Below are positions 313-26,574 of a stretch of 64,000 nt of DNA, piece by piece; the stretch's first letter is position 1; each line of letters starts with the position of its first letter. The notes beneath the pieces are model-generated. The model was given only the letters and a program-made list of their open reading frames with translations. It had not been told where the DNA came from and ran no database searches. This DNA comes from Streptantibioticus silvisoli (GTDB taxonomy: Bacteria; Actinomycetota; Actinomycetes; Streptomycetales; Streptomycetaceae). The stretch covers positions 1 to 64,000 of the forward strand of contig NZ_JAAGKO020000030.1 in NCBI RefSeq assembly GCF_027947535.2, written 5' to 3'. The translations under genes were made by a program, and so were the position numbers.

Positions 313-984
313 TCAGGAGTTGAGATACCGCAGTACGGCGAGGACCCGGCGGTGGTCGCCGACGCTGGGGGCCAGGCCCAGCTTGAGGAAGATGTTGCTG
401 ACGTGCTTCTCCACCGCGCCGTCGGAGACCACGAGCTGCCGGGCGACCGCCGAATTCGTCCGGCCCTCCGCCATCAGCCCCAGCACCTCGCGCTCGCGCG
501 GCGTCAGACCGGCCAGCACGTCCTGCTTGCGGCTGCGGCCCAGCAGCTGGGCGACCACCTCCGGGTCCAGCGCGGTGCCGCCGGCCGCGACCCGTACGAC
601 CGCGTCGACGAACTCGCGCACGTCGGCGACCCGGTCCTTCAGCAGGTACCCGACGCCGCGGCTGGACCCCGCCAGCAGTTCGGTCGCGTACCGCTCCTCG
701 ACGTACTGCGACAGCACCAGGACGCCCAGCGCGGGGTGGTCCTTGCGCAGCCGCACCGCGGCCCGCACCCCTTCGTCGGTGTGGGTCGGCGGCATGCGCA
801 CGTCGGCCACCACCACGTCGGGCAGCTCGCCGGCCGCCGCCAGCCGCTCGATCTCCGCCAGCAGCGCCTCCGCGTCACCGACCCCGGCGACCACCTCGTG
901 GCCCCGGTCGGTCAGCAGCCGGGTCAGGCCGTCCCGCAGCAGGACCGAGTCCTCGGCGATCACCACGCGCACGCTGTCCACCAC
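313..984 (-). CDS. NarL/LuxR-type two-component response regulator
   Basis: A cytoplasmic transcription factor of 223 residues. The N-terminal receiver domain (about 1-125) has the acidic pair E11-D12, the phospho-acceptor Asp61 in VVVADVRMP and the conserved Lys in YLLKD. The C-terminal LuxR helix-turn-helix (about 158-205) begins [15 protein letters not shown] and contains [13 protein letters not shown], the DNA-recognition segment. It lies 106 bp downstream of a sensor kinase on the same strand, so it is probably the output partner of one or both kinases at 1091-3802. The target genes are not evident. Confidence 0.93.
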
Positions 985-1090
985 GACTCGTTTCCCCCAC
1001 GTCGCCTCGGTCGGGACCCGTCGGGCCTCCCGTCGGCCCCCAGCATCGCAGCAACCGGACGCTCCCCGCCGCGCTCCCGCCGAACGGGCC

Positions 1091-2428
1091 TCACACCCGC
1101 CACGGCAACTCCGCGGTGATCCGGGTCGGACCGCCGGCCGGTGAGTCGACCACCAGCAGGCCGTCGACCGCGTCGAGGCGTTCGGCGAGTCCGGCCAGTC
1201 CGCTGCCGGCGTCGGGTGAGGCGCCGCCGCGGCCGTCGTCGCGGACCTGGAGCATCAGCCGGTCGCCGGACCGCCACACCTCCACCCCGGCCCGCGTCGC
1301 ACCGCTGTGCTTGCTGACGTTGGCCAGCAGCTCGCAGACCGTGAAGTACGCGATGCCCTCGATCGCCGGCACCGGACGGCGCGGCAGTTCCACCAGGACG
1401 TCCACCGGTACGGTGCAGCGGGCGGCGATGGAGGACAGGGCGGCGTCGAGGCCGCGGTCGGTGAGGACGGCGGGGTGGATGCCGCGGGCGAGGTCGCGCA
1501 GTTCGGCGAGGGCGAGTTTGACCTCGCCGTGGGCGTCGCCGACCATGCGGGCGGCGGTTTCGGGGTCTTCGAGGAGTTTTTCCTTGGCGAGGCCGAGGTC
1601 CATGGCGAGGGCGACCAGGCGGGCCTGGGCGCCGTCGTGCAGGTCGCGTTCGATGCGGCGCAGGTCGGCCGCCGCGGTGTCCACCACGATCCCGCGGTCC
1701 GACTCCAGCTCCGTCACGCGCGTCGCCAGCCGCGACGGCCCCAGCAGCCCGGTCACCAGCAGCCGGTCCACGCCCGTCAGCCCCCGCACCACCCACGGCG
1801 TCAGCAGCACCAGCACCAGTCCCACGACCGCGGTCGACAGCACCTCGAACCACGACGACAGGTACCAGCCGCCGCCGTGCCCGTCGCCGTAGACCTGCAA
1901 CCCCGGCTCACCGGCGTACGCGGGGAAGACCCAGCGGTACGCCGGGTACGCCAGCATCGACCAGCCGGCCGACCACAGCGGCACGACCACGCAGAACGTG
2001 AACAGGCTCCACGGGAACGCCAGCACCGCGTACAGCGCGTGCCGCCACGACGGCCCCGACTTCAGCTGGCCGCCGATCCACCCCACCGGCCCCGGCCGCC
2101 CGAACCGCACCGGCTCGGGACCGGCCACGTCCACCCGCAGCAGCGCCCGCGCCCTGGCCCGTTCCACCACCCCGATCGCCCGGCAGCCGTACAGCGCGCC
2201 CGCCAGCAACGGGACGCCGATGAACGTGATCATCAGACCGGCGCCCACCGACAGCGCGGCCACCACGTAGACGAAGCACGCGATCGCGATCGGCAGCCCC
2301 AGCAGGACGTACAGCATCTCCCGCCACATCCGCCCGCCCAGCGGCGCGCGCACCACCTCCGGAATCCTCCGGCCGCGCCCCTCACGGGCGGCCGTGCGGT
2401 CGTACCCGCTCATCGTCGCCCCGGTCAT
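1091..2428 (-). CDS. Sensor histidine kinase, HisKA_3 type (paralogue 1)
   Basis: A 445-residue membrane sensor kinase. The N-terminal half has several hydrophobic segments (around 38-80 and 130-215), typical of the putative sensor domain found in actinobacterial kinases. The dimerisation/phospho-acceptor helix contains [16 protein letters not shown] with the likely phosphorylated His264. The C-terminal HATPase has the G-box [18 protein letters not shown]. It should autophosphorylate and pass phosphate to the response regulator immediately downstream. A 310-bp DNA segment covering the histidine helix is identical to one in the upstream paralogue. The signal sensed is unknown. Confidence 0.92.
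1404..1713. repeat. 310-bp perfect direct repeat, copy 1 (inside kinase 1)
   Basis: I read this segment as base-for-base identical to 2937-3246, at a constant offset of 1533. It encodes the dimerisation/phospho-acceptor region and the start of the ATPase domain. A second identical block at the same offset is 1161-1265 versus 2694-2798. Flanking kinase sequence differs clearly between the two genes, so the identity is local. Confidence 0.85.
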
Positions 2429-2461
2429 CGTCGTACCCCTGTCCCCTCGGGTTGTCGGATC

Positions 2462-2622
2462 GTCATACGTGGTGGTCGAACCGCCGGAACGTCCGCGTGG
2501 CGGTCGGCTCGTCGGCGGTCATCCGTGGTGGTCGAACCGTTCGGATGGTCATCCGTGCTGGACGAAGCGTTCGCATCGTCATACGTGGTGGTCGTCGCAA
2601 CGTCATCCGTGGTGGTCGAACT
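2462..2622. repeat. Five degenerate copies of a ~20-bp repeat between the kinases
   Basis: Copies of GTCATMCGTGGTGGTCGAAC begin near 2462, 2518, 2548, 2578 and 2602. Spacings are 56, 30, 30 and 24 bp. The last copy holds the stop codon and final FDHHG residues of kinase 2, so the array looks like duplicated 3' gene-end sequence. The spacer between the two kinases consists mostly of these repeats. Confidence 0.75.
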
Positions 2623-3802
2623 CGCGCTCGCGCCACGGGAGTTCGGCGGTGACCACGGTGGGGCCGCCGAGCGGTGAGTCGACGACCAGGACGCCGTCGA
2701 CCGCGTCGAGGCGTTCGGCGAGTCCGGCCAGTCCGCTGCCGGCGTCGGGTGAGGCGCCGCCGCGGCCGTCGTCGCGGACCTGGAGCATCAGCCGGTCGTC
2801 GGACCGCCAGACGTCGACCGACGCCGACCTCGCACCGCTGTGCTTGCTGACGTTGGTCAGCAGTTCCGAGGCGGTGAAGTACGCGATGCCCTCGATGGCG
2901 GCGGCCGGCCGGCCGGGCAGGTCGGCGACCACCCGGACCGGTACGGTGCAGCGGGCGGCGATGGAGGACAGGGCGGCGTCGAGGCCGCGGTCGGTGAGGA
3001 CGGCGGGGTGGATGCCGCGGGCGAGGTCGCGCAGTTCGGCGAGGGCGAGTTTGACCTCGCCGTGGGCGTCGCCGACCATGCGGGCGGCGGTTTCGGGGTC
3101 TTCGAGGAGTTTTTCCTTGGCGAGGCCGAGGTCCATGGCGAGGGCGACCAGGCGGGCCTGGGCGCCGTCGTGCAGGTCGCGTTCGATGCGGCGCAGGTCG
3201 GCCGCCGCGGTGTCCACCACGATCCCGCGGTCCGACTCCAGCTCCGCGATCCGCCGCTCCAGCTCGTCCGACGGCGACAGCAGCCCGCGGGCCATCGCCC
3301 GGTCCGCGTTGGCCATCCCGCGCGCCACCCACGGCAGCAGCGGCCAGCCGACGAACAGCATCACCAGCGTCACGGTGAACGTCACGATGCCCCACGGCAG
3401 CCGGACGAAGAAGTACAGCGCGTGCCGCCAGGCCACCGGGTCCTTCACCGCCGCCCACAGCCAGCCGAAGAACCCCAGCCGGTCCATCCGCAGCCGGCGC
3501 GGTTCGCCGATCCGCACGCCCAGCAGCGCGCGTACCCGCCGCCGTTCCAGCCGGCCCGCCAGCCGGCAGCCCGACAGGCCGAGCGCCAGCAGCGGCAGCC
3601 CGATCACGGTCACCGCCAGGCCGGTGCCGAGCGCCAGCGTGACCACCACGTAGACGAAGCCGAACACGTCGACGGGGAAGTTGGTCAGCAGGTGCGCGAC
3701 CTCCTTCCACGTCTCCTTGGCGAACGTGGCCCGCACGGGCGGCAGAGGATCGTCGGCTTCGCCGTCCGGATGCTGCGGCGTGCCGCTGGCAGGGGTGCTC
3801 AT
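2603..3802 (-). CDS. Sensor histidine kinase, HisKA_3 type (paralogue 2)
   Basis: A 399-residue paralogue of the kinase at 1091-2428. The start is placed at the ATG at 3802 (MSTPASG) because upstream in-frame sequence is non-conserved and proline-rich. It has the same layout: hydrophobic segments near 35-80 and 110-165, a phospho-acceptor helix with [11 protein letters not shown] and His211, and a C-terminal HATPase with [18 protein letters not shown]. It is the first gene of the minus-strand locus kinase 2, kinase 1, regulator. Only one regulator is present, so either two kinases converge on it or one acts elsewhere. Confidence 0.9.
   Translation of the reverse strand: MSTPASGTPQHPDGEADDPLPPVRATFAKETWKEVAHLLTNFPVDVFGFVYVVVTLALGTGLAVTVIGLPLLALGLSGCRLAGRLERRRVRALLGVRIGEPRRLRMDRLGFFGWLWAAVKDPVAWRHALYFFVRLPWGIVTFTVTLVMLFVGWPLLPWVARGMANADRAMARGLLSPSDELERRIAELESDRGIVVDTAAADLRRIERDLHDGAQARLVALAMDLGLAKEKLLEDPETAARMVGDAHGEVKLALAELRDLARGIHPAVLTDRGLDAALSSIAARCTVPVRVVADLPGRPAAAIEGIAYFTASELLTNVSKHSGARSASVDVWRSDDRLMLQVRDDGRGGASPDAGSGLAGLAERLDAVDGVLVVDSPLGGPTVVTAELPWREREFDHHG
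2937..3246. repeat. 310-bp perfect direct repeat, copy 2 (inside kinase 2)
   Basis: Partner of the segment at 1404-1713, identical by direct reading. Silent positions are also identical, whereas the sequence immediately outside (for example after the shared AGCTCCG at the end) diverges. This suggests recent gene conversion rather than selection on protein alone. Confidence 0.85.
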
Positions 3803-3984
3803 GACGACCACCCTGCCCGTCCCCCGACCTGTCCCGCCATGGGGAGGGTCGGTGGACGAGGGTGGGGTTATCCCCAGTCGTTGACGCGAGGTGTACGGAC
3901 CCGTGACACCGTGTTCGCCGTGCGGGAACTGGGAACCGCCCGGTCCGGTGGGCGGTTCCCCCTTCCGTGACCCGGCAGTACAGG

Positions 3985-9271: not shown

Positions 9272-11574
9272 CCCTGACCAGCCTCGCCGTCCTCGCACCC
9301 CTCCTGCCGTTCCTCGCGGCCGTCGTCGTCCTGGTCAGCGGGCGGAGCGCGCCCGCGTTCGTCCGGCCGCTGGCCGTACTGCCCACGCTGGCCGCGTTCG
9401 CGCTCACGGTCGTGGTGGCGGTCCGCCAGGGCACCGGCCCGGCCACCGACGCCGGCATGCGGCTGACCCCGACCGGCTCGGTGCCGATCGACCTCGCGCT
9501 GCACCTCGACGGCTTCTCCGTGCTCATCGCCGTCCTGGTCGGCCTGGTCGCCACCTGCGTGCAGATCTACTCCACCGGCTACCTGCGCGACGACCCGCGC
9601 TACGCCTCCTACAGCGCGATGGTCTCGCTGTTCACCGCCGCCATGCTGACGGTCGTCTACTCCGGTGATCTGATCATGCTGCTGGTGGGCTGGGAGGTCA
9701 TGGGCATCTGCTCGTACTTCCTGGTCGGCCACTACTGGGAGACGTCCGAGGCGCGCGACGCGTCGCTGAAGGCGTTCCTGACCACCAAGCTCGGCGACGT
9801 GCCGTTCCTCATCGGCCTGTTCGCGCTGGCCGGCGAGACCGGTACCTTCCGGATCAACGGCATCCTCACCGGTGTCTACGCCGGCCAGATCCACCACCCG
9901 ACCCTCATCGCGCTGCTGCTGCTCGCCGGAGTGGCGGGGAAGTCGGCGCAGTTCCCGCTGCACACCTGGCTGCCGGACGCCATGGCCGGTCCGACGCCGG
10001 TGTCCGCGCTGATCCACGCGGCCACCATGGTCGCGGCCGGCGTCTACTTCGTGGCCCGCCTGCTGCCGCTGTTCGAACTGTCCGCCGCCGCGATGGCCAC
10101 CCTCGCCGTGATGGCCGCCATCACGATGATCGGATCGGCGCTGGCCGCCCTCGCCCAGGACGACATCAAACGCGTGCTGGCGTACTCCACCATCGGCCAA
10201 CTCGGCTACATGATGGGCGCCCTCGCGGTCGGCAACCGTTCCTCGGCGGTCTTCCACCTGCTGACCCACGGCGCGTTCAAGGCACTGCTCTTCCTCGGCG
10301 CCGGCGTGGTCATCCACGCGGCCGGCACCAACTCGCTGGCCGCGATGTCCCGGATGCGCGACCTGCGCACCCGGGTGCCGGACGCGATGTGGACCATGGG
10401 CGTCGGCCTGGCCGCGCTCGCCGCGATCCCGCCGCTGTCCGGCTTCTTCTCCAAGGAATCGATCCTGCGTGCCGCCGAGCACGCCGCCGGCGGCCACCAG
10501 GGCGGTGTGCCGTCCGCCGTCGGCTGGACCGTGCTGGTCGCGGCCCTGCTGACCGCGCCGCTCACCGGCGCGTACGCGACCCGGCTGTTCCTGCTGGCCT
10601 TCCGCGGCTCGGGCGGCGCGGCGCCGGCACCGCACCGCGTCCCCGTCGTCATGAACACCGTGCTGTGGGTGCTGGCCATCCCCTCCGTCGCGCTGGGCGT
10701 CGCGGTCGGCGCGCTGCCGAAGTGGTTCGACGGCACCGCGCTGACCCCGACCCTGGCCACCGCCGTCCTCGGCGCCGGCCTGGCCCTCATCGGCGTGCTG
10801 CTGACCTACGCCGCCTGGCGCGTCGCCGCCTCCCGGGCCGTCCCGCTCACCGCGGTCGCCGCCGGCCCCGCGCCCGGCACCCTCACCGCACCCGCCTCCA
10901 CCGCCCGCCCCGGCACCGCAGCCCCGGCACCGGAAGCCGCCCCAGCACCGGACACCACGCCGGCACCCGACGCCGCCCCGCCGCCGGACACCGCCCCGCC
11001 CGAAGCCGCGGGAGCGCCCGCGCCGGAGAAGGCGTCCGCACCGGAAACGTCGTCCGCGCCGGAGAAGCCGTCCGCGCCGGAAGCGTCGACCGCGCCGGAG
11101 AAGGCGTCCGCGCCGCAGAAGCTCCCCGCGCCGGAGACCCGGGCCGAGACCGCGGCGATCGAGGCCGCGCAGGCCGCCGCCGTGGCCGCTGCCACCGGTG
11201 AACCCGCCGCCACCGAGGCCGCCGCCATCGCCGCCCACCCCGTGGTCTACGGCGACATCGCCGGCGCCGCCGACCCCGCAGACCCGGGCCGGCTACTGCT
11301 GGGCCCGCTGCACCGGCACGCCGCCCACGGTTTCCATCTCGACGCCGTGTATTCGGCGCTGTTCGTCCGCCCGGTGACCGCCGCCGCGAGCCTGGTGCGT
11401 TTCCTCGACCGCGAGGTCGTCGAGACGTACGTCAGCGCCGCGGCCGGCACACCCCGCGTCCTGGGCGCCCTGGTGCGCCGCGCGCAGACCGGCAACGTGC
11501 AGACCTACCTCAGCGTGCTGCTGGCCGGCTCCCTGGTGCTGGCCGCCGTCGCCGTCCTCGTCGCCGGAGCGTGA
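9268..11574 (+). CDS. nuoL: NADH-quinone oxidoreductase subunit L with Ala/Pro insertion
   Basis: The distal antiporter-like pump subunit. It shows the Mrp/NuoL signatures: [17 protein letters not shown] with the key Glu, [35 protein letters not shown], and [22 protein letters not shown]. It has 768 residues against the usual 610-660. The excess is an Ala/Pro/Glu-rich insertion at about residues 530-650, with repeats such as APEKASAPE, located before the last transmembrane helix and lateral-helix region. The GTG start overlaps the nuoK stop. Confidence 0.93.
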
Positions 11575-16073: not shown

Positions 16074-16284
16074 CCGGCGCGCCGCCCGGTTGCCATGGGT
16101 GATCCGGCGGCGGGAGCGGCCGGACGCCCGCCGCCCCGGCGCCATACGGGCCGGCGGAAGCCCGCCGCAACGCCGCGTCCGGCACCGGCCGGGCCCTGGG
16201 CCGTCGGCCGGTGGCCCAGTTCCTACGAACGCGCAGTCATACGATCAGCCACCCCTGCCTTTCGTCACCAGGAGTGATGCGGAC

Positions 16285-17235
16285 GTGACCGACTTACGCG
16301 TGGTCCCGTGGAAGCGCTACGGACACGACCGGCTGTACGTGAACGATGCCGATGCCGGGGGAGAGAAGGTCGCCTGGCTGGACCGCGGCACCGGCCGGCT
16401 CACCGTCCTGGTCGAAGCGCACCGGGAAGCGGCGGTCCGCGCCCTGGCGCCCTACCTCTCCAGCACGGCACCGCCGGCGTCGCCACCCCGGCGCCCACCG
16501 GCCACGCCACGGCAGCCGGCCGCCACCCCGGCGGCCCCGTCGGCCGCTCCGCGGCGTCCGGCCGGTCCCACGCGCCCGGTGAGCGTCCCCGCCGCGCGAA
16601 CCGCCGCCGGCCCGGTGCCGTCCCCGAACCCCGACCTGGCCGCCAACCGGCCCGGTGAGGCGCTGCTGGCGAAGATCGACGAGCTCGCCCCGGGCTTCTG
16701 GCGTTCCGTGCTGAACCTGCTGCTGGGCAGGCGTTCGCAGGCCGACAGCTGGCGCAAGGGGCTGGCCGGTGAACGTGCGGCAGCCGTCGAGCTGGACCGG
16801 CTGGCCGGGCGCGGCTGGCGGGTGCTGCACTCGATACCCCTGCCGCGCGGGGTCGACATCGATCATCTGCTGATCGGCCCGGGCGGCGTCTTCTCGTTCA
16901 ACACGAAGCACCACCCCGGCGCCCAGGTCTGGGTGGGCGACGAGGCGGTCAAGATCGGCGGCCAGGCGTACCCGTACGTCCGCAAGGCCCGCGCCGAGGC
17001 ACGCCGGGCGTCAGCCGCCCTGAGCCGCGCCTGCGGTTTCGAGGTCCCCGTCGAACCCGTGCTGGCCTTCGTCGGCACCGACCGGCTCACGGTGGTCGCG
17101 TCCCTGAGGGATGTGCGCGCCATCGGCCACCGCGAGATCGCTGCGCTGGGCCGGGCGGGTGGCGTCTGGAGCCGGCGGCAGGCCGAAGTGATCTACGCGG
17201 CGGCCCGCGAGCGGGGGACGTGGTCCGGGGCGTGA
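16285..17235 (+). CDS. NERD-domain (nuclease-related) protein
   Basis: The GTG at 16285 (VTDLRVVPWKRYG) is chosen because AGGAG lies about 10 bases upstream; a more upstream start would add non-conserved Pro/Arg sequence. The protein has 316 residues: an N-terminal part (1-60), a Pro/Ala/Arg linker (60-120) and a C-terminal NERD domain (about 155-300). The domain shows KGLAGERAAAVELDRLAGRGWRVL, then DIDHLLIGPGGVFSFNTK, matching the D...(N)xK nuclease-like core. NERD proteins are widespread in streptomycetes; the role is unknown. Confidence 0.8.
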   Translation: MTDLRVVPWKRYGHDRLYVNDADAGGEKVAWLDRGTGRLTVLVEAHREAAVRALAPYLSSTAPPASPPRRPPATPRQPAATPAAPSAAPRRPAGPTRPVSVPAARTAAGPVPSPNPDLAANRPGEALLAKIDELAPGFWRSVLNLLLGRRSQADSWRKGLAGERAAAVELDRLAGRGWRVLHSIPLPRGVDIDHLLIGPGGVFSFNTKHHPGAQVWVGDEAVKIGGQAYPYVRKARAEARRASAALSRACGFEVPVEPVLAFVGTDRLTVVASLRDVRAIGHREIAALGRAGGVWSRRQAEVIYAAARERGTWSGA

Positions 17236-17493
17236 GGGGGCCAGTCCCGGGTGCGGGGCGTGAGGGGGTGTTCTTGGGCGTGAGGTGGATTTCGGGGCGT
17301 GAGGTGGGCTTCGGGGCGCGGAGCCGGCCGGTCCCACGCGGAGGGGGCGGTCGGGGAGACGGCTGACGTCAGCGGTGGTTGGTCGACGACCCGAGCAGGG
17401 GGCTGAACGGGCCGGACGTCGCCGTTGGGAGAGGGGGTGAACGGGTCGGGTCGGACGCCGTCCCCACCGAGTAGGTGATGAACGGGCCCGTTG
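17236..17493. other. Repeat-containing spacer, no gene seen
   Basis: The convergent spacer between the NERD gene and yajQ. It contains several imperfect copies of GGGGCGTGAGGTGG-like sequence at about 17255-17320. No open frame with coding character and no clear terminator hairpin was seen. Confidence 0.5.
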
Positions 17494-17982
17494 TCAGCGG
17501 TAGTTGACGTACTGGAGGGCGAAGTCGAGGTCCTTGCCCTTCAGCAGGGCCTGGACCTCCTGAAGGTCGTCGCGGCTCTTGGAGGAGACACGCAGTTCGT
17601 CGCCCTGCACCTGCGCCTTGACGCCCTTGGGCCCCTCGTCGCGGATGATCTTTGCGACCTTCTTCGCGTTGTCCTGGGAGATGCCCTCCTCGATCGACGC
17701 GACGATCTTGTACTCCTTGCCGGATGCCTGCGGCTCTCCGGTGTCCAGCGCCTTCAGCGAGATGCCACGCTTGACGAGCTTCGTCTCGAAGACGTCGAGG
17801 ATGGCCTTGACCCGCTCCTCGGAGTTCGCCCGCATCTCGATCTTCTCGCCCGACCAGTCGATCGAGGCGCCCACGTTCTTGAAGTCGTAGCGCTGCGAGA
17901 TCTCCTTGCCTGCCTGGTTCAGGGCGTTGTCGACCTCTTGCCGCTCGACCTTCGAGACGATGTCGAAACTGGAGTCGGCCAT
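17494..17982 (-). CDS. yajQ: YajQ family nucleotide-binding protein
   Basis: A 162-residue cytoplasmic protein that starts [23 protein letters not shown], the canonical N-terminus, at ATG 17982. An RBS-like GGAGCC lies upstream on that strand. The family (formerly UPF0234) has two RRM-like folds and binds nucleotides, including cyclic-di-GMP in some members. It also shows [13 protein letters not shown] and [36 protein letters not shown]. Length is normal. Confidence 0.94.
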
Positions 17983-18187
17983 GTTCAGTTGGCTCCTTGC
18001 GTCATATGCGTCGGCTGCGCCGCGATGTCCTCCGTGCGGCCCCGGGCCCCGGGCCCGTCCCCGCAAGAGTAGCCACCACCGGCCCCCGGCACCCTGATCA
18101 ACCGGGTAGCGGACCACCCCCTGCGATCAGGTATCGTTACGTCGTCGCCAAGGGAGACCGCGCAAGCGAATCCCACCACGACACCCC

Positions 18188-18272
<85 letters not shown>

Positions 18273-18276
18273 GATC

Positions 18277-18320
18277 AGAAGGGCCCGTGACCAGCGAAAA
18301 CGCTGGATGCGGGCCCTTCT
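18277..18320 (+). terminator. Hairpin terminator after tRNA-Tyr
   Basis: The outer stem AGAAGGGCCCG pairs perfectly with CGGGCCCTTCT, and an inner stem CCAGCG-AAAA-CGCTGG sits in its loop. It lies 4 bases after the tRNA CCA end. It probably ends tRNA transcription and separates it from the convergent integrase gene. Confidence 0.7.
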
Positions 18321-18428
18321 GGCATGAGCGGGCCATGTGGACGGTACGTGGCCGGAATCCCGGTCTGTCTCACCCGATCCCACGTGCTGACCACCGCTTG
18401 TGGGGCAGGCGTGGGGCACGCCCCACGG

Positions 18429-19808
18429 TCACTCCCAGGTCTCCAGCGCCTTGTCGATCCGGTCGTTCGCCATGCTCGTCGCGCCGTCCAGACACTTCGC
18501 GTAGACCTTCAGCAGGACCGCGACGGAGTGGCCGGCCCGCCGGGCGACCTCCACCGGATCGACCCCGGAGTTCAGCCACAGGGAGACGCACGCGTGCCGC
18601 AGGTCGTACGGCCGCGCGGCCAGCGGTGACGCCTGCTGCTCCGGCGGCATGAACGCCTTCCGGGTCCGCGCCCACACCTCCCCGTACCCGCTCTCCTGCA
18701 CCAGGCCCCCGCGACTGGTCTGGAACAGGCGGCCGTCGTCAGTCGTGCCGTACGTCATCAGGTGGTCGCGCAGCATCGTGACCAGCACAGGAGGGATCGG
18801 CACGTGGCGCACCTCCTTGCGCGGGCGCCACTTGAGGCCCCGCACGTCGTGGGAGTCGCCGGTGTCGGTCCACGCGCTGCCCACGCGGGGGCGCGACCCG
18901 TCGATGTGCAGCGTGCCCCAGCCCTTGAGCGGGAGTTCGCAGTTCACGCGGCGGAGCCACACGGTTTCCGCCGGCCGCAGACCCGCGTGGTAGAGGGTCC
19001 CGAAGAACGCCCGGAGGTGCTGGCCCCGGTCGCCCTGCTCGGCCACGGCGTTCAGGAGCTTGCGCGCCTGCCGGGGGTTGACCACGCACCCGGGGTCCAC
19101 CTGCTCCACCGGCGCCGGGATCGCCCACTGGACCTGGGGAAGCGGGTTGACCTTGAGCCGCCGGGCCTCCACCGCGAACCCGAGGGCGTTGTGGAAGATC
19201 GCACGCTTCCGCCGTACCACGGACGGCGCGTGCTGGCCGCCGTCCAACCGCACGGTGAAGGCGGTCAGCACCTTGCGGAGCAGCAGCGGGTCTTCCAGGT
19301 TGCTCATCGGCACGGTGTGCGCCGCGACCCAGTCGAGCACCTGCTGAACGTCTGTCGGCGGGTCCTCCCGCCACCGGTTCCAGTTGAACCCCCAGCCGTA
19401 CAGGGCCCGCCGCAGCGTGCGGGCATCCGGCATGCCGCGATGCGTGGTGAACAGGGCCGGCGTCGCGCAGGCCATGGCTTCGGCGAGGGTGGTCCGTGTC
19501 TTGGCCGGGGCCGCCGGCCACTTCATCTCGATGTAGTCGCGGGCGTGCTGGTACCAGCTCACGTCGTTGCGCTTGCGCAGCTCCGACACGGGCACGCCGG
19601 TGGCCTCATCGAACGGTTCACCGAGCCTCACGGCGGTGAGCAGTTCAGCGCGCCGGCCGTCGGCAAGGGTCTTGGTCTTGAACGTCTGGGAGTGCGGGGT
19701 GTCGCCGACCTTCCAGCGCAGTTCGGCGGACGACTGGTTGCGGTCCTTGCGCTGGCGAACGGCCCAGATACGGACGTCGAACGTGTGGCCCACAGGGGGT
19801 CCTCGCAT
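18429..19808 (-). CDS. Tyrosine site-specific integrase
   Basis: A 459-residue recombinase expected to integrate and excise the element at tRNA-Tyr. The catalytic domain has the first Arg in YHAGLRPAETVWL, a Lys in RPRKEVRHVPI, the box PYDLRHA with Arg404-His405 (the first His of the HxxR box is Tyr401, as I recall in many streptomycete elements), His427 in RAGHS and the nucleophile Tyr436 in LKVYAKCLDG. An N-terminal Arm-type domain precedes. The gene points at the tRNA and its stop lies ~110 bp past the hairpin. The frame is intact. Confidence 0.93.
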   Translation of the reverse strand: MRGPPVGHTFDVRIWAVRQRKDRNQSSAELRWKVGDTPHSQTFKTKTLADGRRAELLTAVRLGEPFDEATGVPVSELRKRNDVSWYQHARDYIEMKWPAAPAKTRTTLAEAMACATPALFTTHRGMPDARTLRRALYGWGFNWNRWREDPPTDVQQVLDWVAAHTVPMSNLEDPLLLRKVLTAFTVRLDGGQHAPSVVRRKRAIFHNALGFAVEARRLKVNPLPQVQWAIPAPVEQVDPGCVVNPRQARKLLNAVAEQGDRGQHLRAFFGTLYHAGLRPAETVWLRRVNCELPLKGWGTLHIDGSRPRVGSAWTDTGDSHDVRGLKWRPRKEVRHVPIPPVLVTMLRDHLMTYGTTDDGRLFQTSRGGLVQESGYGEVWARTRKAFMPPEQQASPLAARPYDLRHACVSLWLNSGVDPVEVARRAGHSVAVLLKVYAKCLDGATSMANDRIDKALETWE

Positions 19809-19856
19809 GTGGGAGGGGCCCGCCGGGCGTTCCGGCGGGCCCCTCCGAGGTGTGCG

Positions 19857-20030
19857 TCAGTAGGCGAGGGTGTCGAGGTTGCGAAGCCAGGCGTCGAGGT
19901 CGTCCCGGCGGAACCGGAGGTGGCCGTTCGGCAGCTTCACCGGGCGGGGGGCCTGGCCCCGGGCGCGCATCCGGTAGAAGGCGGCGCGGGACATGTCGAG
20001 TTCGGCGAGGACTTCGGGGAGGCGGAGCAT
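19857..20030 (-). CDS. Excisionase-like MerR/HTH protein
   Basis: A 57-residue helix-turn-helix protein (MLRLPEVLAELDMSRAAFYRM). It ends with RFRRDDLDAWLRN, the typical form of excisionases in actinomycete integrative elements: HTH residues ~4-25, then a wing with LPNGHLRFRRDDLDAWL. It lies 48 bp upstream of the integrase on the same strand, the usual xis-int order. The start at 20030 is set by family length. It is the probable directionality factor, and could also act as a repressor. Confidence 0.85.
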   Translation of the reverse strand: MLRLPEVLAELDMSRAAFYRMRARGQAPRPVKLPNGHLRFRRDDLDAWLRNLDTLAY

Positions 20031-20176
20031 GGGCGGCCGCCTGCGGGTGAGTGATCGGTCCAGTCCGCTCCCCGCGGTTCGGCTCCGGCCGGGCCTGCGC
20101 CCCGCCTCACTCCAGCCTGGCCAACGTCTAAGGCAAACCACTCCCGTGAAACGGCTACGCGCGGCAGGATGTTGAT

Positions 20177-23020
20177 GTGGACTACGACCTGACGCGCCTC
20201 GGCAGCCGAGAGTTTGAACACCTCACGCAAGCCTTGGCGATACAGATCCTGGGCCCAGCGGTTCAGGCTTTCGGTGACGGACCCGACGGCGGACGTGAGG
20301 CAGAGTTTCACGGTAAAGTGACGTTCCCGGTCCCCGACCCCGAGGGTCCATGGGACGGACACGGCATTCTGCAAGCGAAGTTCCTGCAACGGCCGCGTGG
20401 TACGACACAGGATACGTCTTGGTTTTTTACCCAGGTTCGCAGCGAGCTACGGCAGTGGGCTGATCCCGAATCAAAGAGAGCCCGCGTCGGAGCTCTCCCA
20501 AATTATCTATTGTTTTCCACGAATGTAGTCCTATCTGCAGATCCAGAGACTGGCGGGATCGACTCATTCCAACGCATCACAAGAGAACTTGTTGATGAGT
20601 TAAAATTGCCAATCCGCGACATTCGAGTCTGGCATTTTGATCAGATGTGCCGCTATCTGGACAACTACCCGAACATTCGGCAAAGCTACAGTGCACTCAC
20701 TACCGCGGGTGATGTCCTTTTTCGTTTGCGGGAATTTATCGAGGGGACGGCGGCGGAACTCGGTGAACTTCTTGCTAACCATAGTAGTAAGGAACTTTCC
20801 ACTGATCAATGGCTGAAGCTGGGGCAAGCAGGAGAAGCAGATAATCAACGCCTCCCCTTGGCTGAGCTAGCGATTGACCCCACGGCTTCGTTTGTAACCT
20901 CCGATGGCAACCAGGAAAGTGTTGCCGTAGTGGGACATGTCATTTCGCATGGCGACACAATTCTGCGCTCAGTGAATTCTAAACAAGGGCCTCGTCATAT
21001 TGCTCTAATCGGAGGGCCGGGACAAGGAAAGTCAACAGTCGGTCAACTTTTGTGTCAAGTCTATCGTGTAGCGCTACTTAAAGATGCAGCTGATCGACTA
21101 GACGATGAGACGGTCGAGATTCTTAACATCTTTTCTGGAGAGATGCAGAGAATGGGCCTGGGCATGCCCGCTGCACGAAGATGGCCTATTCGCATCAACC
21201 TCAGTGAGTATGCGGATGCTGTGGCAGGCGGTGAAATTATCAGCCTTCTTCGGTATCTCTCATCTAAAATCAGCCACAGAACACCGGATATCACGCCTGC
21301 TCAATTGCGTTCTTGGTTGAGGGCGTGGCCGTGGCTTCTGGTTCTAGACGGTCTCGACGAAGTAGCGTCCGCGCATGCTCGTGACATTGTTATGGAGCGG
21401 ATAAACGATTTCCTTTTAGAGGCGAACTCAGTAGATGCAGATTTGCTAGTTGTTGCAACCTCGCGCCCGCAGGGATACAGAGAAGAGTTCTCTCCAAAGC
21501 GGTACGTCCACATGCGGCTGGAGCCCATGGGGGCAGAAGATGCCGTCTCGTACGCAGCGCAGCTTGTGCAAATGCGTCACCGTGGAGATCAGGAGACAGC
21601 TGAGCGTGTGTTGCGGCGCGTAGAAGAGGCCTCTGAGGAGGACCTAACGGCGCGTCTAATGAGATCTCCTCTCCAGGTTACGATCATGGCCATTCTACTT
21701 GAACGCCGTGAACGCGTACCTCAACAACGGTATCGCCTTTTTTATGATTACTATCAGGTCATCTATAATCGAGAGGCAGGTAAACTTGGGCCGACCGCAA
21801 GGCTCATTGATGAGCATCGAAATGCGGTGACCTATCTCCATGAACGTGCCGGATTTCTTCTGCAGATGAGATCTGAGAACGATGGCGAATCTGATGCGGT
21901 TCTATCGCGGGCCGAGCTATTTAGCATTATCGAAGATTACCTAAGAGGTGAGGGATTCGACGACGCAGATAGCGGCGTGCTGGCGAGTCGAATGGTCGAT
22001 GCAGCCATGCGCCGTCTCATTCTGCTCGTCCCTCGCAAGCAAGATAGTGTCGGATTCGACGTGCGAAGTCTGCAAGAGTTCATGGCGGCGCGAGCAATCG
22101 TATCGGAAGAACCCGAGGGAGCGAGTGTGCTCCTCACCGCAATTGCTACATCTACCCACTGGCGAAACACGTGGTTGTTGGCGGCCGGACAGATCTTTCA
22201 TGAACGACCTGCGCTGAGGGACAGGCTGGTTATGCTACTTGACGAAATCCAAGCGGAAAGTGAAATAAGTCTTTTCACCAAGCCGGGGTCGGATCTCGCA
22301 GTTGGCCTGCTTTCGGATGGCGTAGCTGCAAAGGCGCCTAGATTCCTTCGGGCTCTGACGAAGATAGCGCTGGAGCTTCTAGAAGACCCACTGGAGGAAC
22401 TTGAGTGCCTGGAACTTTGTGAAGCTCTTTGGGATGTAGCCGCTGCCGATGACGCATCGCGCCGACTTATTGAGCGTACGGTTGACAAGAATGTGGAAGC
22501 TGGGGGACACAGGGCTGCCAATACGCTAGCAACGCTAGGCATTGCTTGGCATGATGAATCGGGTGCGCTGGCCTATCACGTGCGTAGGCATCTAGAGGTG
22601 GCGCGGATTAACCAAGATGACTTGGCATCCCTCCTTGGCTGCAAACTGCTGTGGCCTTCCTATCTGTTGAAGGGGCTCAATGATGGATCGATTGAATTCC
22701 ACCATCGTTCTCCGATGCAGGTACTGAAACCATATCTGGCGCTTTCTGCTCTGGAGCGTTTCGAAGAAATATACGAAGAGATATTTGCGAGTGACCGAAT
22801 CCAATTCTTGACCATTTCTCCTGGTCGAGAGGTTGCCCTCGGATATACGCCTTCGAAAGGTGCGAAGAGTGAGGATATTATCTTGGCTACGCCTATAGCT
22901 GAGGAGCTTGTATTTGCGGCGGAGGGGCTTCCGGTTGAGCTTTGGCAACTCAAATACCATATTCGTCAGATCTTTCGAGCTATGCAAGAGCGTGGACCCT
23001 CGGGTCTCGATGAGTCGTAA
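20177..23020 (+). CDS. Nuclease-like domain fused to NACHT NTPase, candidate defence protein
   Basis: A 947-residue protein. Residues ~1-130 resemble an Mrr-like PD-(D/E)xK nuclease: an FEHLTQAL helix, then Asp37 in GPDGGREAEF and Gln66-x-Lys68 in ILQAKF. Residues ~270-450 form a STAND/NACHT NTPase with Walker A GGPGQGKST (Gly279-Thr287), Walker B WLLVLDGLDE (Asp391, Asp394-Glu395) and a SRPQGY motif. The remaining ~500 residues are helical with no repeat I recognise and would be the sensor. Bacterial NACHT and Avs proteins with such effectors protect against phage; that role here is inferred. GC is far below the neighbours. TTA codons lie at 20600 and 21416. It starts at GTG 20177 and is divergent from xis. 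Confidence 0.82.
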   Translation: MDYDLTRLGSREFEHLTQALAIQILGPAVQAFGDGPDGGREAEFHGKVTFPVPDPEGPWDGHGILQAKFLQRPRGTTQDTSWFFTQVRSELRQWADPESKRARVGALPNYLLFSTNVVLSADPETGGIDSFQRITRELVDELKLPIRDIRVWHFDQMCRYLDNYPNIRQSYSALTTAGDVLFRLREFIEGTAAELGELLANHSSKELSTDQWLKLGQAGEADNQRLPLAELAIDPTASFVTSDGNQESVAVVGHVISHGDTILRSVNSKQGPRHIALIGGPGQGKSTVGQLLCQVYRVALLKDAADRLDDETVEILNIFSGEMQRMGLGMPAARRWPIRINLSEYADAVAGGEIISLLRYLSSKISHRTPDITPAQLRSWLRAWPWLLVLDGLDEVASAHARDIVMERINDFLLEANSVDADLLVVATSRPQGYREEFSPKRYVHMRLEPMGAEDAVSYAAQLVQMRHRGDQETAERVLRRVEEASEEDLTARLMRSPLQVTIMAILLERRERVPQQRYRLFYDYYQVIYNREAGKLGPTARLIDEHRNAVTYLHERAGFLLQMRSENDGESDAVLSRAELFSIIEDYLRGEGFDDADSGVLASRMVDAAMRRLILLVPRKQDSVGFDVRSLQEFMAARAIVSEEPEGASVLLTAIATSTHWRNTWLLAAGQIFHERPALRDRLVMLLDEIQAESEISLFTKPGSDLAVGLLSDGVAAKAPRFLRALTKIALELLEDPLEELECLELCEALWDVAAADDASRRLIERTVDKNVEAGGHRAANTLATLGIAWHDESGALAYHVRRHLEVARINQDDLASLLGCKLLWPSYLLKGLNDGSIEFHHRSPMQVLKPYLALSALERFEEIYEEIFASDRIQFLTISPGREVALGYTPSKGAKSEDIILATPIAEELVFAAEGLPVELWQLKYHIRQIFRAMQERGPSGLDES

Positions 23021-23253
23021 TGCGGTCGCCAAGCGGCCAACGAGACTAAACCTCGAATGTGGTTGCAGTCTTAGTGCTATTCCCGTAGTGCTCGGGTGAA
23101 TAAGTAACCCGGAGCAGAGACGATCGACAGAGCCTGGACTGTGGCATGAACGCATTGCCGCTGGCGGCCCTTAAGGGTAGAGAATCCCCCATGCGTCCCC
23201 GTAGCCAGCGGCTGACCGAAGAAATCCTGGTCAGAAGGGTTGAAGCTGGCCCG
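23021..23253. other. Low-GC spacer between NACHT gene and att-like sequence
   Basis: No gene is recognised. Composition is intermediate between the NACHT gene and the host chromosome. I found no clear terminator. The short motif TCAGAAGGG near 23231 also follows the intact tRNA-Tyr (18276), possibly by chance. Confidence 0.4.
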
Positions 23254-23300
23254 CTGTAAATCTGCCGGCTTAACCACCCGGATTCGAACCCTGGCGTCGC
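23254..23300 (+). other. Decayed tRNA-Tyr 3' half, attR-like boundary
   Basis: CTGTAAATCTGCCGGCT (23254-23270) matches 18220-18236 exactly and TTCGAACCCTGGCG (23283-23296) matches 18250-18263 exactly. The variable arm between them differs at several positions with a 1-base length change, and the acceptor end reads CGTCGCAA instead of CGCCGCCA. No 5' tRNA half is present, so it is not a functional tRNA. It marks the distal end of an insertion. Confidence 0.8.
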
Positions 23301-23439
23301 AAGAGGAACCGAGACTTCGTGCGACCTTGTAAAAGCGCAGGCCACACGGAGTTTCCTCCTTTTGCGCGGGGCATCGCGGTTCTCACGGGCTTGTCTCGCT
23401 CTGTCCGGTCCCGCCTCGTGATTTCCAGGAAAGGACGGT

Positions 23440-23690
23440 CCACCCGGCTCGTTCCACTCGCTGAGGGCTGTGTCGATCCGGTTGGCGCGCTCCTTGGCAT
23501 TCGAGAGGACCTTGGCGTAGACCTCTCAGCAGCGGCGACGGCGCGGCCGGCCCGCCGAGCGGCCTCCACCGGGTTGACGCCGGAGCGGGACGCTGGGGTG
23601 CCAGGGCCGCACGGCCCCTTGGCCGTCCGCGAAGCGCGTTCCTCCTCGCTCAGGCCGCGGCTCCGGCCTTCGCCCGCACCTCCTCTGGCG
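23440..23690 (-). pseudogene. Remnant of a second tyrosine integrase (C-terminal part)
   Basis: On the minus strand one frame reads SRSGVNPVEAARRAGRA, matching NSGVDPVEVARRAGH of the intact integrase. After a frameshift a second frame reads VYAKVLSNAKERANRIDTALSEW, matching KVYAKCLDG...NDRIDKALETW and including the nucleophile Tyr. Upstream, EEERASRTAKGP resembles PEQQASPLAARP. No intact frame covers the region. It lies next to the decayed tRNA half in the same orientation as the intact integrase beside tRNA-Tyr, so it belonged to an older element. Confidence 0.75.
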
Positions 23691-23994
23691 GCCCCCCCGC
23701 AGCAGCCAGCCCGCCAAGGCACCCCCGTCCCCGGCGGCGTGCATCCGCAGCATGCGGACACAGACCGCCGGAGCCACACCACAGGGAAACCCCCTCACCC
23801 TCGCCCCCTCAAAACCCAAGACCCCAGCAATGGTTGCCGGGGCCCTGCGGTCCTGCCGTCTTACCGTGGCAACGACGTTGCCGCCTTACGTGCCACCCGA
23901 GCCACCCCGCCCACACCCCGCCATCCGTGGCAGCCGAGGCAGCCGTCGTTCCGAGTTCCTGCCGCGGCCGGGGGCGTGGTCGGCCCCGCAGGGG
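23691..23994. other. Spacer without recognisable gene
   Basis: Lies between the integrase remnant and the glycosyltransferase stop codon. GC returns to host level. No homologous protein sequence was recognised in either strand and no clear hairpin was found. It may hold further eroded element sequence. Confidence 0.4.
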
Positions 23995-26574
23995 TCAGTG
24001 CTTCGGGGCGCAGTCGTAGACCGTTTCGCCGAGCACCGGGACGGACGGCAGGCTCGTGCAGTCCTTCGTGACCCACTTCGTGATGGCCGACGTCGGCGTG
24101 GTCGCCGAGCGGCCGCCGCCGCCGAAGCCGCCCCACGCGCCGCCGCCCCTGCCGGCGAAGCCTCCCGCCCCGGCGAAGCCGCCCGCGCCGGACGTCTGGG
24201 GAAGCAGGACGTAACGCAGTTGGCCCGTTGACGTCAGGTGCTGGAAGGCGGTGAGGGTGGGGAAGGGGACCTGGCCGCTGAAGCCGCCCAGGGCGAGGAC
24301 GGGGGCGCCGGCGCTGAGGATGTACGGGGAGGCCGTGTTCCAGCTCGTCGTCGCGAACACGTACCGCGCCGAACCCTGGTGGGCCCGCGCGTACGACAGC
24401 ATCGAGGCCTGACCGGCGGTCAGCGTGCCGCCGCCCATCCCGCCGCCCATGCGCCCGCCGCCCATCCCGCCGAACCCCTGGGCGCGCGCCTTCTCCATCG
24501 CTGCGGACCCTGCGGAGCCCATCCCGCCGAAGCCGCCGGGCCGGGCCGATCCGCTCGACGGGTTCGTCGGTCCCACCGAGCCCATCATGCTGGTCATACC
24601 GCCCGACTGGCTGAAGACCTGGGACGCCCACGCGCTCGGCGCCAGCAGGATCGCGGCGAGGCCCGCCAGCAGTCCGGCGAGCGCGACACGCCGGGCCCGG
24701 GTGCCGCTCGCGCCGCGCCGCCCGAACACCAGCAGCCCGACGGCGACCACCCCCAGCGCGATCACCGCGGGTGCCAGCCACGGGGCGAACGAGCTGAACT
24801 GGAAGCAGAGGTACGCCGCCCACGCCACCGTCGCCGCCACCGCGCCGGGCAGCACCCACGCGCGCCGCCCGCCGTCCCGGAACGCCCGCCACATCGCCGT
24901 GGCGCCCGCGCCGGTGAGCGCGGCCAGCGGCACCGCGACGACGCCCATGTAATACGTGTGCCCGCCGACGCTGCCCGCGCTGAAGACCAGGAAGTACGTC
25001 ACCAGCCAGACGCCCCACAGCACGAAACCGGCGCGCAGCCGGTCCTTGCGCGGACGCCGGCCGCGCCACAGCAGCCCGGCGACGAGCGCGATCGCGGCGA
25101 ACGGGTAGAGCCAGCCGGTCTGCGAGGCGAGCGACGTGCCGAACATCTTCGACCAGCCGTCCTGCTGCCCGCCGAAGCCCCCGAAGCCGCCCCGCGCGCC
25201 CCCGGCACCCGCCCGGCCGCCCGCCGCGTCACCGCCGAACCCCGCACCGCCCGCGAACGCCCCGCGTCCGCCGGCACCCCCGGAAGCCTGCCCGCCGCTG
25301 CCGGTCGTACCGGTGCCCCGGCTGCCGGAGGCCCCGGTCGTACCGGACCCGTGGCTCCCGGCGGAGCCCGCCGTACCGGAGGCGTTCGCCCCGGAGCCGT
25401 GACTGCCGGCGGCAGCGCTCGCACCGGCCGCCCGCCCGCCGGCGGCCTTCCCGGCACCACTCGCCGCTGCCCCTTGCACCCCGGAGCCCTGCGTACCGGA
25501 GTCCTGCGCCCCGGAGGCCTGCGTACCGGAGCCTTGCGCCCCGGAGGCCCGCCCGCCGGAGGCGTTCGCCCCGAAGCCCTGCGCCCCGGAAGCCGTCGCG
25601 CCGGCGAACCCGCCGCGCCGCCCGGCGCCGCCCGCGCCGCTGCCCCCGCCGTGCCCGCCGCCCTGCGTCGCGCTGACGCTGCCCGTCGACGCCGCGGAGA
25701 TCCCCAGGGAGGAGAAGCGGTTGAGGAAGTTGTAGCCGACGACCATGCTGAACGCGGAGTTGTTGGTGGTGCCGTCGATGTAGGGGCGGTCCTGGGCCGG
25801 GGTGAGGGTGGCCGCCAGCATCCAGGAGCCGGAGACGGCGATCGTCACGACACCGGCGACGGCGAGGTGGCCGAGGCGGCGCAGCCGGGCGCCCGGCGCG
25901 GCCAGCGCGTAGGCGAGGGCCAGCGCCGGCAGCACGGCCCACGCCTCCAGCATCTTCGCCTGGAAGCCCACGCCGACCCAGACGCCGGCCATCAGCAGCG
26001 GCCGCAGCCGTCCGGACTCCGCCGCGCGCCCGGTCGCGTCCGCGGCCAGCAGTACGCACAGGGTGAAGGCCGGGTCCTCGACCGCGGTGCGGAACAGCCC
26101 GGCCGCCACCGGGGTCACCAGGAACGCGGTGCAGGCGATGAGTGCCGCGTTCGGGCCGGCCCAGCGGCGTACCACCCGGAAGAGCACCAGGACGCAGCCG
26201 ACGCCCTCCAGCACCTGGGGGAGGGTGAGCGCCCACGGGTGGAAGCCGAAGATCCGCGCGGAGACGGCCTGCGGCCACAGGAAGCCGGGGAGCTTGTCGA
26301 GGGTGATGGAGTTGCCGGGGTCGAACGAGCCGAAGAAGAAGCCCTTCCAGCTCTCCGTCATGCTCCGGACGGCGTTGGCGTAGAAGACGTGGAACTGGCT
26401 GTTCTCGATGCCCCACGCGTACACCAGCAGCGCCACGCCGCACAGCGCGATTAGCGCCGGTCTGCTGTACGCGGGCTGGTCCTCCGGGGATCTCCACGGC
26501 GCGCGAAAGCGGGGCGCGCTGCGGGGGACGGTGGGGGGGAGGACTGTGGTGGCCATGCCCGCAGTCTTCGGCAC
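23995..26574 (-). CDS. Family 39 (ArnT/PMT-like) membrane glycosyltransferase
   Basis: A polytopic membrane enzyme of 859 residues that would transfer sugars from a lipid-linked donor (family knowledge). The N-terminal region shows YANAVRSMTESWKGFFFGSFDPGNSITLDKLPGFLWPQA, with the acidic loop typical of the family, followed by many hydrophobic helices. Residues ~299-458 are a Gly/Ala/Ser insertion with repeats such as GSGTQASGAQ, then helices resume, with another Gly/Met-rich stretch near 690-725. A GTG at 26574 gives MPKTAG; the ATG six codons later (MATTV) is equally possible. Acceptor unknown. Confidence 0.85.
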   Translation of the reverse strand: MPKTAGMATTVLPPTVPRSAPRFRAPWRSPEDQPAYSRPALIALCGVALLVYAWGIENSQFHVFYANAVRSMTESWKGFFFGSFDPGNSITLDKLPGFLWPQAVSARIFGFHPWALTLPQVLEGVGCVLVLFRVVRRWAGPNAALIACTAFLVTPVAAGLFRTAVEDPAFTLCVLLAADATGRAAESGRLRPLLMAGVWVGVGFQAKMLEAWAVLPALALAYALAAPGARLRRLGHLAVAGVVTIAVSGSWMLAATLTPAQDRPYIDGTTNNSAFSMVVGYNFLNRFSSLGISAASTGSVSATQGGGHGGGSGAGGAGRRGGFAGATASGAQGFGANASGGRASGAQGSGTQASGAQDSGTQGSGVQGAAASGAGKAAGGRAAGASAAAGSHGSGANASGTAGSAGSHGSGTTGASGSRGTGTTGSGGQASGGAGGRGAFAGGAGFGGDAAGGRAGAGGARGGFGGFGGQQDGWSKMFGTSLASQTGWLYPFAAIALVAGLLWRGRRPRKDRLRAGFVLWGVWLVTYFLVFSAGSVGGHTYYMGVVAVPLAALTGAGATAMWRAFRDGGRRAWVLPGAVAATVAWAAYLCFQFSSFAPWLAPAVIALGVVAVGLLVFGRRGASGTRARRVALAGLLAGLAAILLAPSAWASQVFSQSGGMTSMMGSVGPTNPSSGSARPGGFGGMGSAGSAAMEKARAQGFGGMGGGRMGGGMGGGTLTAGQASMLSYARAHQGSARYVFATTSWNTASPYILSAGAPVLALGGFSGQVPFPTLTAFQHLTSTGQLRYVLLPQTSGAGGFAGAGGFAGRGGGAWGGFGGGGRSATTPTSAITKWVTKDCTSLPSVPVLGETVYDCAPKH

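Follow-up and report, generated by a model that had tools for sequence, protein, structure and literature searches.

An eroded integrase end beside a small NACHT-carrying element suggests successive insertions at tRNA-Tyr in Streptantibioticus silvisoli

Results

An integrative element and a second, decayed integrase end at tRNA-Tyr

We analysed a 64,000-nucleotide stretch of Streptantibioticus silvisoli DNA (the window; assembly GCF_027947535.2, contig NZ_JAAGKO020000030.1, positions 1 to 64,000), in which ARAGORN calls a single intact tRNA-Tyr; this gene is also the sole Rfam match within 17800-24200. About 5 kb of DNA with an integrase gene (int), an AlpA/HTH_17-like excisionase gene (xis) and a NACHT NTPase gene, here called element B, lies between the tRNA and a decayed second end, the fossil, which we attribute to an outer element A. 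The features are as follows.

18188-18272, plus strand: intact tRNA-Tyr (GTA), from ARAGORN and Rfam RF00005
18273-18325, plus strand: tRNA terminator hairpin, fold -39.7 kcal/mol, z -8.3, presumably carried by B
18429-19808, minus strand: intact tyrosine integrase P0001, 459 aa (Pfam Phage_integrase, 1.9e-5)
19857-20030, minus strand: excisionase-like HTH_17/AlpA protein, 57 aa (Pfam HTH_17 3e-9, AlpA 1.5e-5)
20177-23020, plus strand: NACHT-type NTPase, 947 aa, the sole cargo of B (Pfam NACHT, 4.6e-5)
23254-23300, plus strand: fossil tRNA-Tyr 3' half, the right att copy of B and left att copy of A
23309-23356, plus strand: decayed tRNA terminator hairpin of A, from the fold of 23301-23360
23390-23420, no strand assigned: GTCTC-type stretch, resembling one that intact elements have between their terminator and int
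23427-23685, minus strand: C-terminal remnant of an older tyrosine integrase, from nhmmer, gap pattern, codon positions and trees
23686-23994, no strand assigned: transition from fossil to chromosome, without informative homology
23995-26574, minus strand: YkcB/PMT_2 mannosyltransferase gene, from Pfam, in the same place in genomes G027 and G016 (L043, L044)

The Phage_integrase match of P0001 scores 24.9 bits, below the Pfam cut-off of 27.1. Eight named Streptomyces records carry relatives of this integrase with 61-80% identity, and a full tRNA-Tyr adjoins it in seven of them, whereas in the other (L041) just part of the tRNA 3' half is matched there. From about 18220 onwards, the 3' half of the intact tRNA was presumably supplied by B itself. 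The NACHT match scores 23.8 bits, below the Pfam cut-off of 26.7; the first 241 residues of this protein gave no Pfam match at E <= 1, and PADLOC returned for it a single weak match of 44 residues (E 0.001). Its gene has a G+C content of 49-55%, compared with 62-80% in the profile windows outside it, and relatives at E <= 1e-20 are present in 18 of 297 family genomes, its own genome counted. The PDB, searched by sequence, gave no match for the NACHT protein (E up to 0.1) or the integrase (E up to 0.01). The low-G+C stretch that separates the NACHT gene from the fossil half (23021-23253) has no Rfam match; a DNA search with 23015-23253 found nothing in plasmids, and among 199 other genomes just three gave matches, of 25-37 bp.

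We compared B with the AICE criteria of PMC3218068. The scan covered the three proteins encoded by int, xis and the NACHT gene, which occupy most of 18429-23020. B has a tyrosine integrase, its Pfam score below cut-off, with an adjoining excisionase-like gene; replication (RepSA, RepAM, Prim-Pol) and FtsK-type genes are not among the three genes scanned.

The fossil tRNA half and its terminator

An earlier note on this DNA had described, at 23254-23690, a decayed tRNA-Tyr 3' half followed by the frameshifted C-terminus of another tyrosine integrase in the orientation seen at the intact tRNA. Its coordinates were correct to within a few bases, and both parts were recovered. The fossil half is 88% identical to the intact gene over 48 columns, with 5 mismatches and 1 gap. 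With the tRNA 3' half as query against both strands of the whole window, position 23254 scored 63, against 24 for the runner-up and 29 for the best of 3000 shuffles. Searching the entire assembly (8.7 Mb, 98.1% complete) with the tRNA returned two matches, the intact gene and the fossil half, so that the gene at 18188-18272 is the one full tRNA-Tyr of the assembly. The tRNA is accompanied by two integrases, P0001 and the fossil integrase end, and the decayed direct repeat of its 3' end (23254-23300) separates the two elements. Neither the window nor the rest of the assembly contains a third tRNA-Tyr piece such as would mark the far end of the outer element A; in this reading, A's far repeat has been lost. 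The divergence of the window's two halves was set beside that in seven other genomes with two halves, compared over 52 positions: there were no differences in G102, G343, G278, G009 and G016 (the two halves of G016 lie on different contigs), one in S. torulosus and three in G191.

The intact tRNA is followed by a strong terminator hairpin, and hairpins occupy the same place at other tRNA-Tyr loci (-37.0 to -50.8 kcal/mol in four relatives). The fold of 23301-23360 is weaker, at -24.4 kcal/mol (z -3.7, equalled by 1 of 200 shuffles). We also folded the 62 bases 3' of 45 distinct tRNA-Tyr 3' halves: 43 reach -35 kcal/mol or lower, one gives -27.9 and the fossil is the weakest of all at -24.1 kcal/mol. 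Beyond the terminator, the GTCTC-type stretch is a predicted arm-type integrase site. A TGTCYCR motif is found there in 27 of the 45 distinct flanks, comprising 24 of 24 integrase-bearing ends (both window ends counted) and 3 of 21 without an integrase, counts that are descriptive since the motif was first spotted in these very sequences. One tRNA-Tyr 3' flank, L012 of G219, has a GTCTC-type motif without an integrase match, and is possibly another eroded end.

A broken integrase C-terminus behind the fossil half

In three-frame translation of the remnant, SGVNPVEAARRAG and VYAKVLSNAKERANRIDTALSEWNEPG stand in different frames. Three integrase clades occur at tRNA-Tyr in the genomes compared: that of B, a clade whose members end in a WNEP tail (the WNEP clade), and a third comprising L017, L039, L026 and L073 of G016. 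A DNA profile of seven WNEP-clade C-termini matched 23683-23427 on the minus strand with 78.0 bits (E=1.3e-23), whereas a profile of seven B-clade C-termini, B included, matched 23585-23443 with 42.1 bits (E 1.2e-12). Neither profile matched the reversed window. Relative to L006, the remnant (23683-23454) has deletions of 1, 1, 11, 1 and 3 nucleotides; at least four deletions disrupt the frame, and about 80 of some 460 codons survive. Differences from the WNEP-clade consensus are spread evenly over codon positions (26/78, 20/77 and 24/75). By contrast, L006, L009, L014, L020 and L033 show 0-1, 1-4 and 20-23 differences at the three positions, and more distant members of the clade show 7, 9 and 34 (L053) or 8, 10 and 43 (L011). 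The even pattern of the remnant is not decisive, however, because the intact P0001 gives similar counts against the same consensus (25/78, 18/77 and 29/75).

Aligned to complete ends of tRNA-Tyr elements, as the earlier note had advised, the fossil is matched continuously. An end profile that spans tRNA half, terminator, arm and integrase, built from five complete WNEP-clade ends of other genomes, covered 23254-23685 in a single alignment at 98.2 bits. B-clade end profiles covered 23254-23585 with 64.3 bits (five rows, without B) or 70.6 bits (six rows, with B), and a third-clade end profile scored 59.1 bits on the fossil. L034 was kept out of the B-clade end profile as a row with inserted DNA. 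The order of tRNA half, terminator, GTCTC stretch and integrase is well supported as the integrase end of a tRNA-Tyr element.

Relationship of the fossil integrase to known clades

The last readable codons of the fossil are VYAKVL...SEWNEPG. Members of the WNEP clade read VYAKVL...REWNEP; in B's clade the sequence is VYAKCLDG and the tail is lacking. The tail is present in the fossil, in 7 of 7 WNEP-clade rows and in 0 of 7 rows of B's clade, the groups having been named with the tails already known. Of 19 fully diagnostic columns, the fossil agrees with the WNEP clade in 9, with B's clade in 5 and with neither in 5; for majority-diagnostic columns the numbers are 26, 15 and 16.

Two trees were calculated, tree 1 from an alignment with some columns beyond the coding end and tree 2 from coding columns only, with L073 added. 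Rows used were 21 of 25 and 22 of 26, respectively, as L015, L019, L027 and L046 were dropped as truncated or decayed; L038, in which the frame is broken near the end, and the decayed L007 and L048 were never included. Several genomes supply two loci (L005/L053, L006/L052, L007/L048, L009/L074, L026/L045, L027/L051, L031/L050, L033/L075). With the rows used, the third clade is starred in both trees. The fossil groups with the WNEP clade in both, with support of 80/99 in tree 1 and 67/98 in tree 2; its branch is long (1.0) and its position is starred in neither. Forcing the fossil together with P0001 was 12.8 log units worse in tree 1 (p-AU 0.048) and 10.5 log units worse in tree 2 (p-AU 0.065). 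Placement inside B's clade was not rejected (p-AU 0.094 in tree 1 and 0.229 in tree 2). It is well supported, though not proven, that the fossil integrase belongs to another lineage than B's, and we place it nearest the WNEP clade, perhaps as an offshoot close to its base. A copy of the neighbouring integrase, or one of its relatives, appears less likely on these sequence comparisons. The fossil is most likely the end of a mobile element different from B at the same site. The earlier note's "another" integrase is therefore favoured by the profile scores and the tail, while the trees fail to reject B's clade.

The right-hand border and the genus g17

The fossil ends about 310 bp short of the mannosyltransferase gene. 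Matches to the intervening 23686-23994 are short and weak and occur in 15 of 61 genomes, its own counted. In the g17 genomes G027 and G016, other DNA of about 2.3 and 3.1 kb, respectively, separates tRNA-Tyr or its 3' half from the mannosyltransferase gene, beyond which lie an amidohydrolase-type gene and tRNA-Thr/Met. Among the tRNA-Tyr loci compared, these two genomes are the only ones in which the mannosyltransferase adjoins tRNA-Tyr, and a search with the right flank in 30 genomes placed it nowhere less than 50 kb from tRNA-Tyr among the matches listed.

Related genomes did not provide the intact older element that the earlier note had suggested looking for. The tRNA-Tyr element of G016 has a third-clade integrase, 57% identical to the fossil over 217 bp, and integrase searches between tRNA-Tyr and the mannosyltransferase in G027 were empty. 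No strain with an intact A, or with the locus lacking B, was found, the genus being represented by one genome. Since g17 has the mannosyltransferase after tRNA-Tyr without the fossil, a deletion in the window is likely; it would run from inside the old integrase through the body of A and its far att copy to a point near the mannosyltransferase. Such a deletion would explain both the short reach of the fossil and the missing third tRNA piece. The mannosyltransferase gene contains a low-complexity stretch rich in proline, alanine and glycine (25310-25660), which the g17 copies match not at all or partly.

The tRNA-Tyr site in other genomes

The left flank was matched in all 52 genomes of 1-5 contigs that were searched. 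A second tRNA-Tyr 3' piece lies within 35 kb in at least 14 of the 52, a lower bound because ten candidates were scored per genome. Decayed integrases whose best fit is the WNEP profile adjoin the tRNA in G191, G236 and G283 (L046, L048 and L051). Behind a B-clade element of S. torulosus, positions 2672-2840 of L037 hold an att copy, a terminator and a GTCTCAC stretch, but the integrase is missing; the WNEP end profile scores 81.0 bits there, and this locus is an independent parallel to the fossil.

At L046 of G191, an eroded element of about 2.9 kb (828-3852) has a truncated WNEP-type integrase and retains its far att copy; it resembles a halfway stage in the erosion proposed for the window. 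A further locus, L034 (9368-10124), has a B-clade integrase that ends about 0.7 kb from tRNA-Tyr, compared with about 0.16 kb in L035-L037, and this enlarged distance means that inserted DNA may lie between; a weak end-like match is present at 9873-9940.

Discussion

The best explanation of the locus is very probably that an older element A occupied tRNA-Tyr, that B arrived later between the tRNA and A, and that A then eroded. A would have recombined into the tRNA-Tyr 3' half through its own tyrosine integrase, leaving a copy of that half, its own terminator and an int gene reading toward the tRNA. B, with its int, xis and NACHT genes, would later have used the same att core and thus come to lie between the tRNA and A. 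The integrase of A would then have gathered its frame-disrupting deletions, and a larger deletion would have taken A's body, its distal att copy and, probably, a piece of the chromosome as far as the mannosyltransferase gene. That A is the older element is suggested by its broken integrase, in contrast to the open int, xis and NACHT frames of B. The DNA order would be identical if the far att copy of the first element had been the target of the second, so the newer-before-older succession proposed in the earlier note draws on the state of decay and not on the arrangement.

Given a single full tRNA-Tyr, the half that is found today at 23254 would have been part of a working gene until B inserted, and its decay would have followed that event; B is probably a long-standing resident and not a recent arrival. 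Some of the fossil's differences may nevertheless predate B, since a tRNA half brought in by an element can itself be a variant: L034 has one with 80% identity to that of the window, and its tRNA is still called. Another element that once lay between, or a second tRNA-Tyr missed by the assembly, may also count against this age reading. The decayed att copy may serve as a relative clock for the arrival of the small NACHT-carrying element. That it is a clock and possibly also a lock, with B trapped beside it and its defence-type gene domesticated in place, is an idea that we put forward tentatively and consider rather doubtful.

Four other accounts were weighed. The integrase-like frames could be chance similarity in plain chromosome beside a true att copy of B, and a tRNA half and terminator without an integrase do exist elsewhere (G027, L043). 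We rejected this account, which the earlier note had named as a possible refutation, and give it practically no credence: the tRNA-half scan stands clear of its shuffles, the integrase part by itself reaches E=1.3e-23 with the reversed window empty, and the end profile match has the correct strand and distance. That the remnant is a decayed copy of B's own integrase end, or stems from an earlier B-clade element, is harder to dismiss yet still quite improbable. Within the genome the remnant aligns best with B's int (84% over 76 bp). It sides with B's clade in 5 of the 19 fully diagnostic columns, and on coding columns the p-AU values are 0.065 for the fossil with P0001 and 0.229 inside B's clade. 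Against this, WNEP-clade profiles fit better and over a greater length, B's clade lacks the WNEP tail, and tree 1 speaks against a duplicate of P0001 (p-AU 0.048). Simple duplication of the adjacent integrase, which the earlier note had listed as a refuting outcome, is thus disfavoured by profiles and tail, although the trees do not formally reject it.

The other two accounts concern the order of events. Fossil and B could have come jointly as a tandem composite moving in cis, its far end lost later; the arrangement on its own is compatible with this, and cis-mobilisation of Streptomyces tandem elements is discussed in PMC9513070. With the mannosyltransferase common to g17, however, the far end of the composite must also have been lost, and no positive evidence for the composite emerged; we regard it as unlikely. 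Entry of A into the far att copy of a resident B, which would make the intact element the older one, predicts the same DNA order, but it is A that is broken and B whose int, xis and NACHT frames are open, and this order of arrival is very unlikely.

Arrival of B between the tRNA and an older A, the reading we prefer, has published counterparts. In a Streptomyces population, elements with different integrases have accreted at one tRNA-Arg, together with a conserved remnant without traB (PMC9513070), and tandem AICEs are reported at tRNA-Lys in Frankia and at tRNA-Arg in S. avermitilis (PMC3218068). Unlike the AICEs of PMC9513070, which accreted with an ancient remnant at tRNA-Arg, the window involves tRNA-Tyr; its remnant is an integrase end only, with the far repeat lost, and none of B's three genes is a replication or transfer gene. 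SLP1 (Gi11) of S. coelicolor also sits in tRNA-Tyr, where it regenerates the tRNA and is bounded by a 112 bp far-end direct repeat, and it has a restriction nuclease gene, sco4631 (ScoMcrA), near attR (PMC3009677). SLP1 is conjugative and measures 17.1 kb, whereas B has about 5 kb with int, xis and the NACHT gene; bacterial NACHT proteins act against phages (PMC12169576). Stacked elements with remnants are thus already published for Streptomyces, and the window is an ordinary further case: it shows a succession of integrative elements at tRNA-Tyr with the older one worn to its integrase end, and leaves the general picture of element accretion unchanged.

Closest in build to the fossil is the WNEP-clade element of G343 (L052), which uses the same tRNA, has the same order of tRNA half, terminator, GTCTC stretch and integrase, and whose integrase belongs to the clade closest to the fossil. 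It is intact, with about 16.5 kb between its att copies and FtsK/SpoIIIE-type and GntR genes, whereas the fossil is reduced to its end. At another locus, L045 of G102 (16170-18946), a tRNA-Tyr integrase is split, with about 1.4 kb between its two pieces, as an insertion would leave it.
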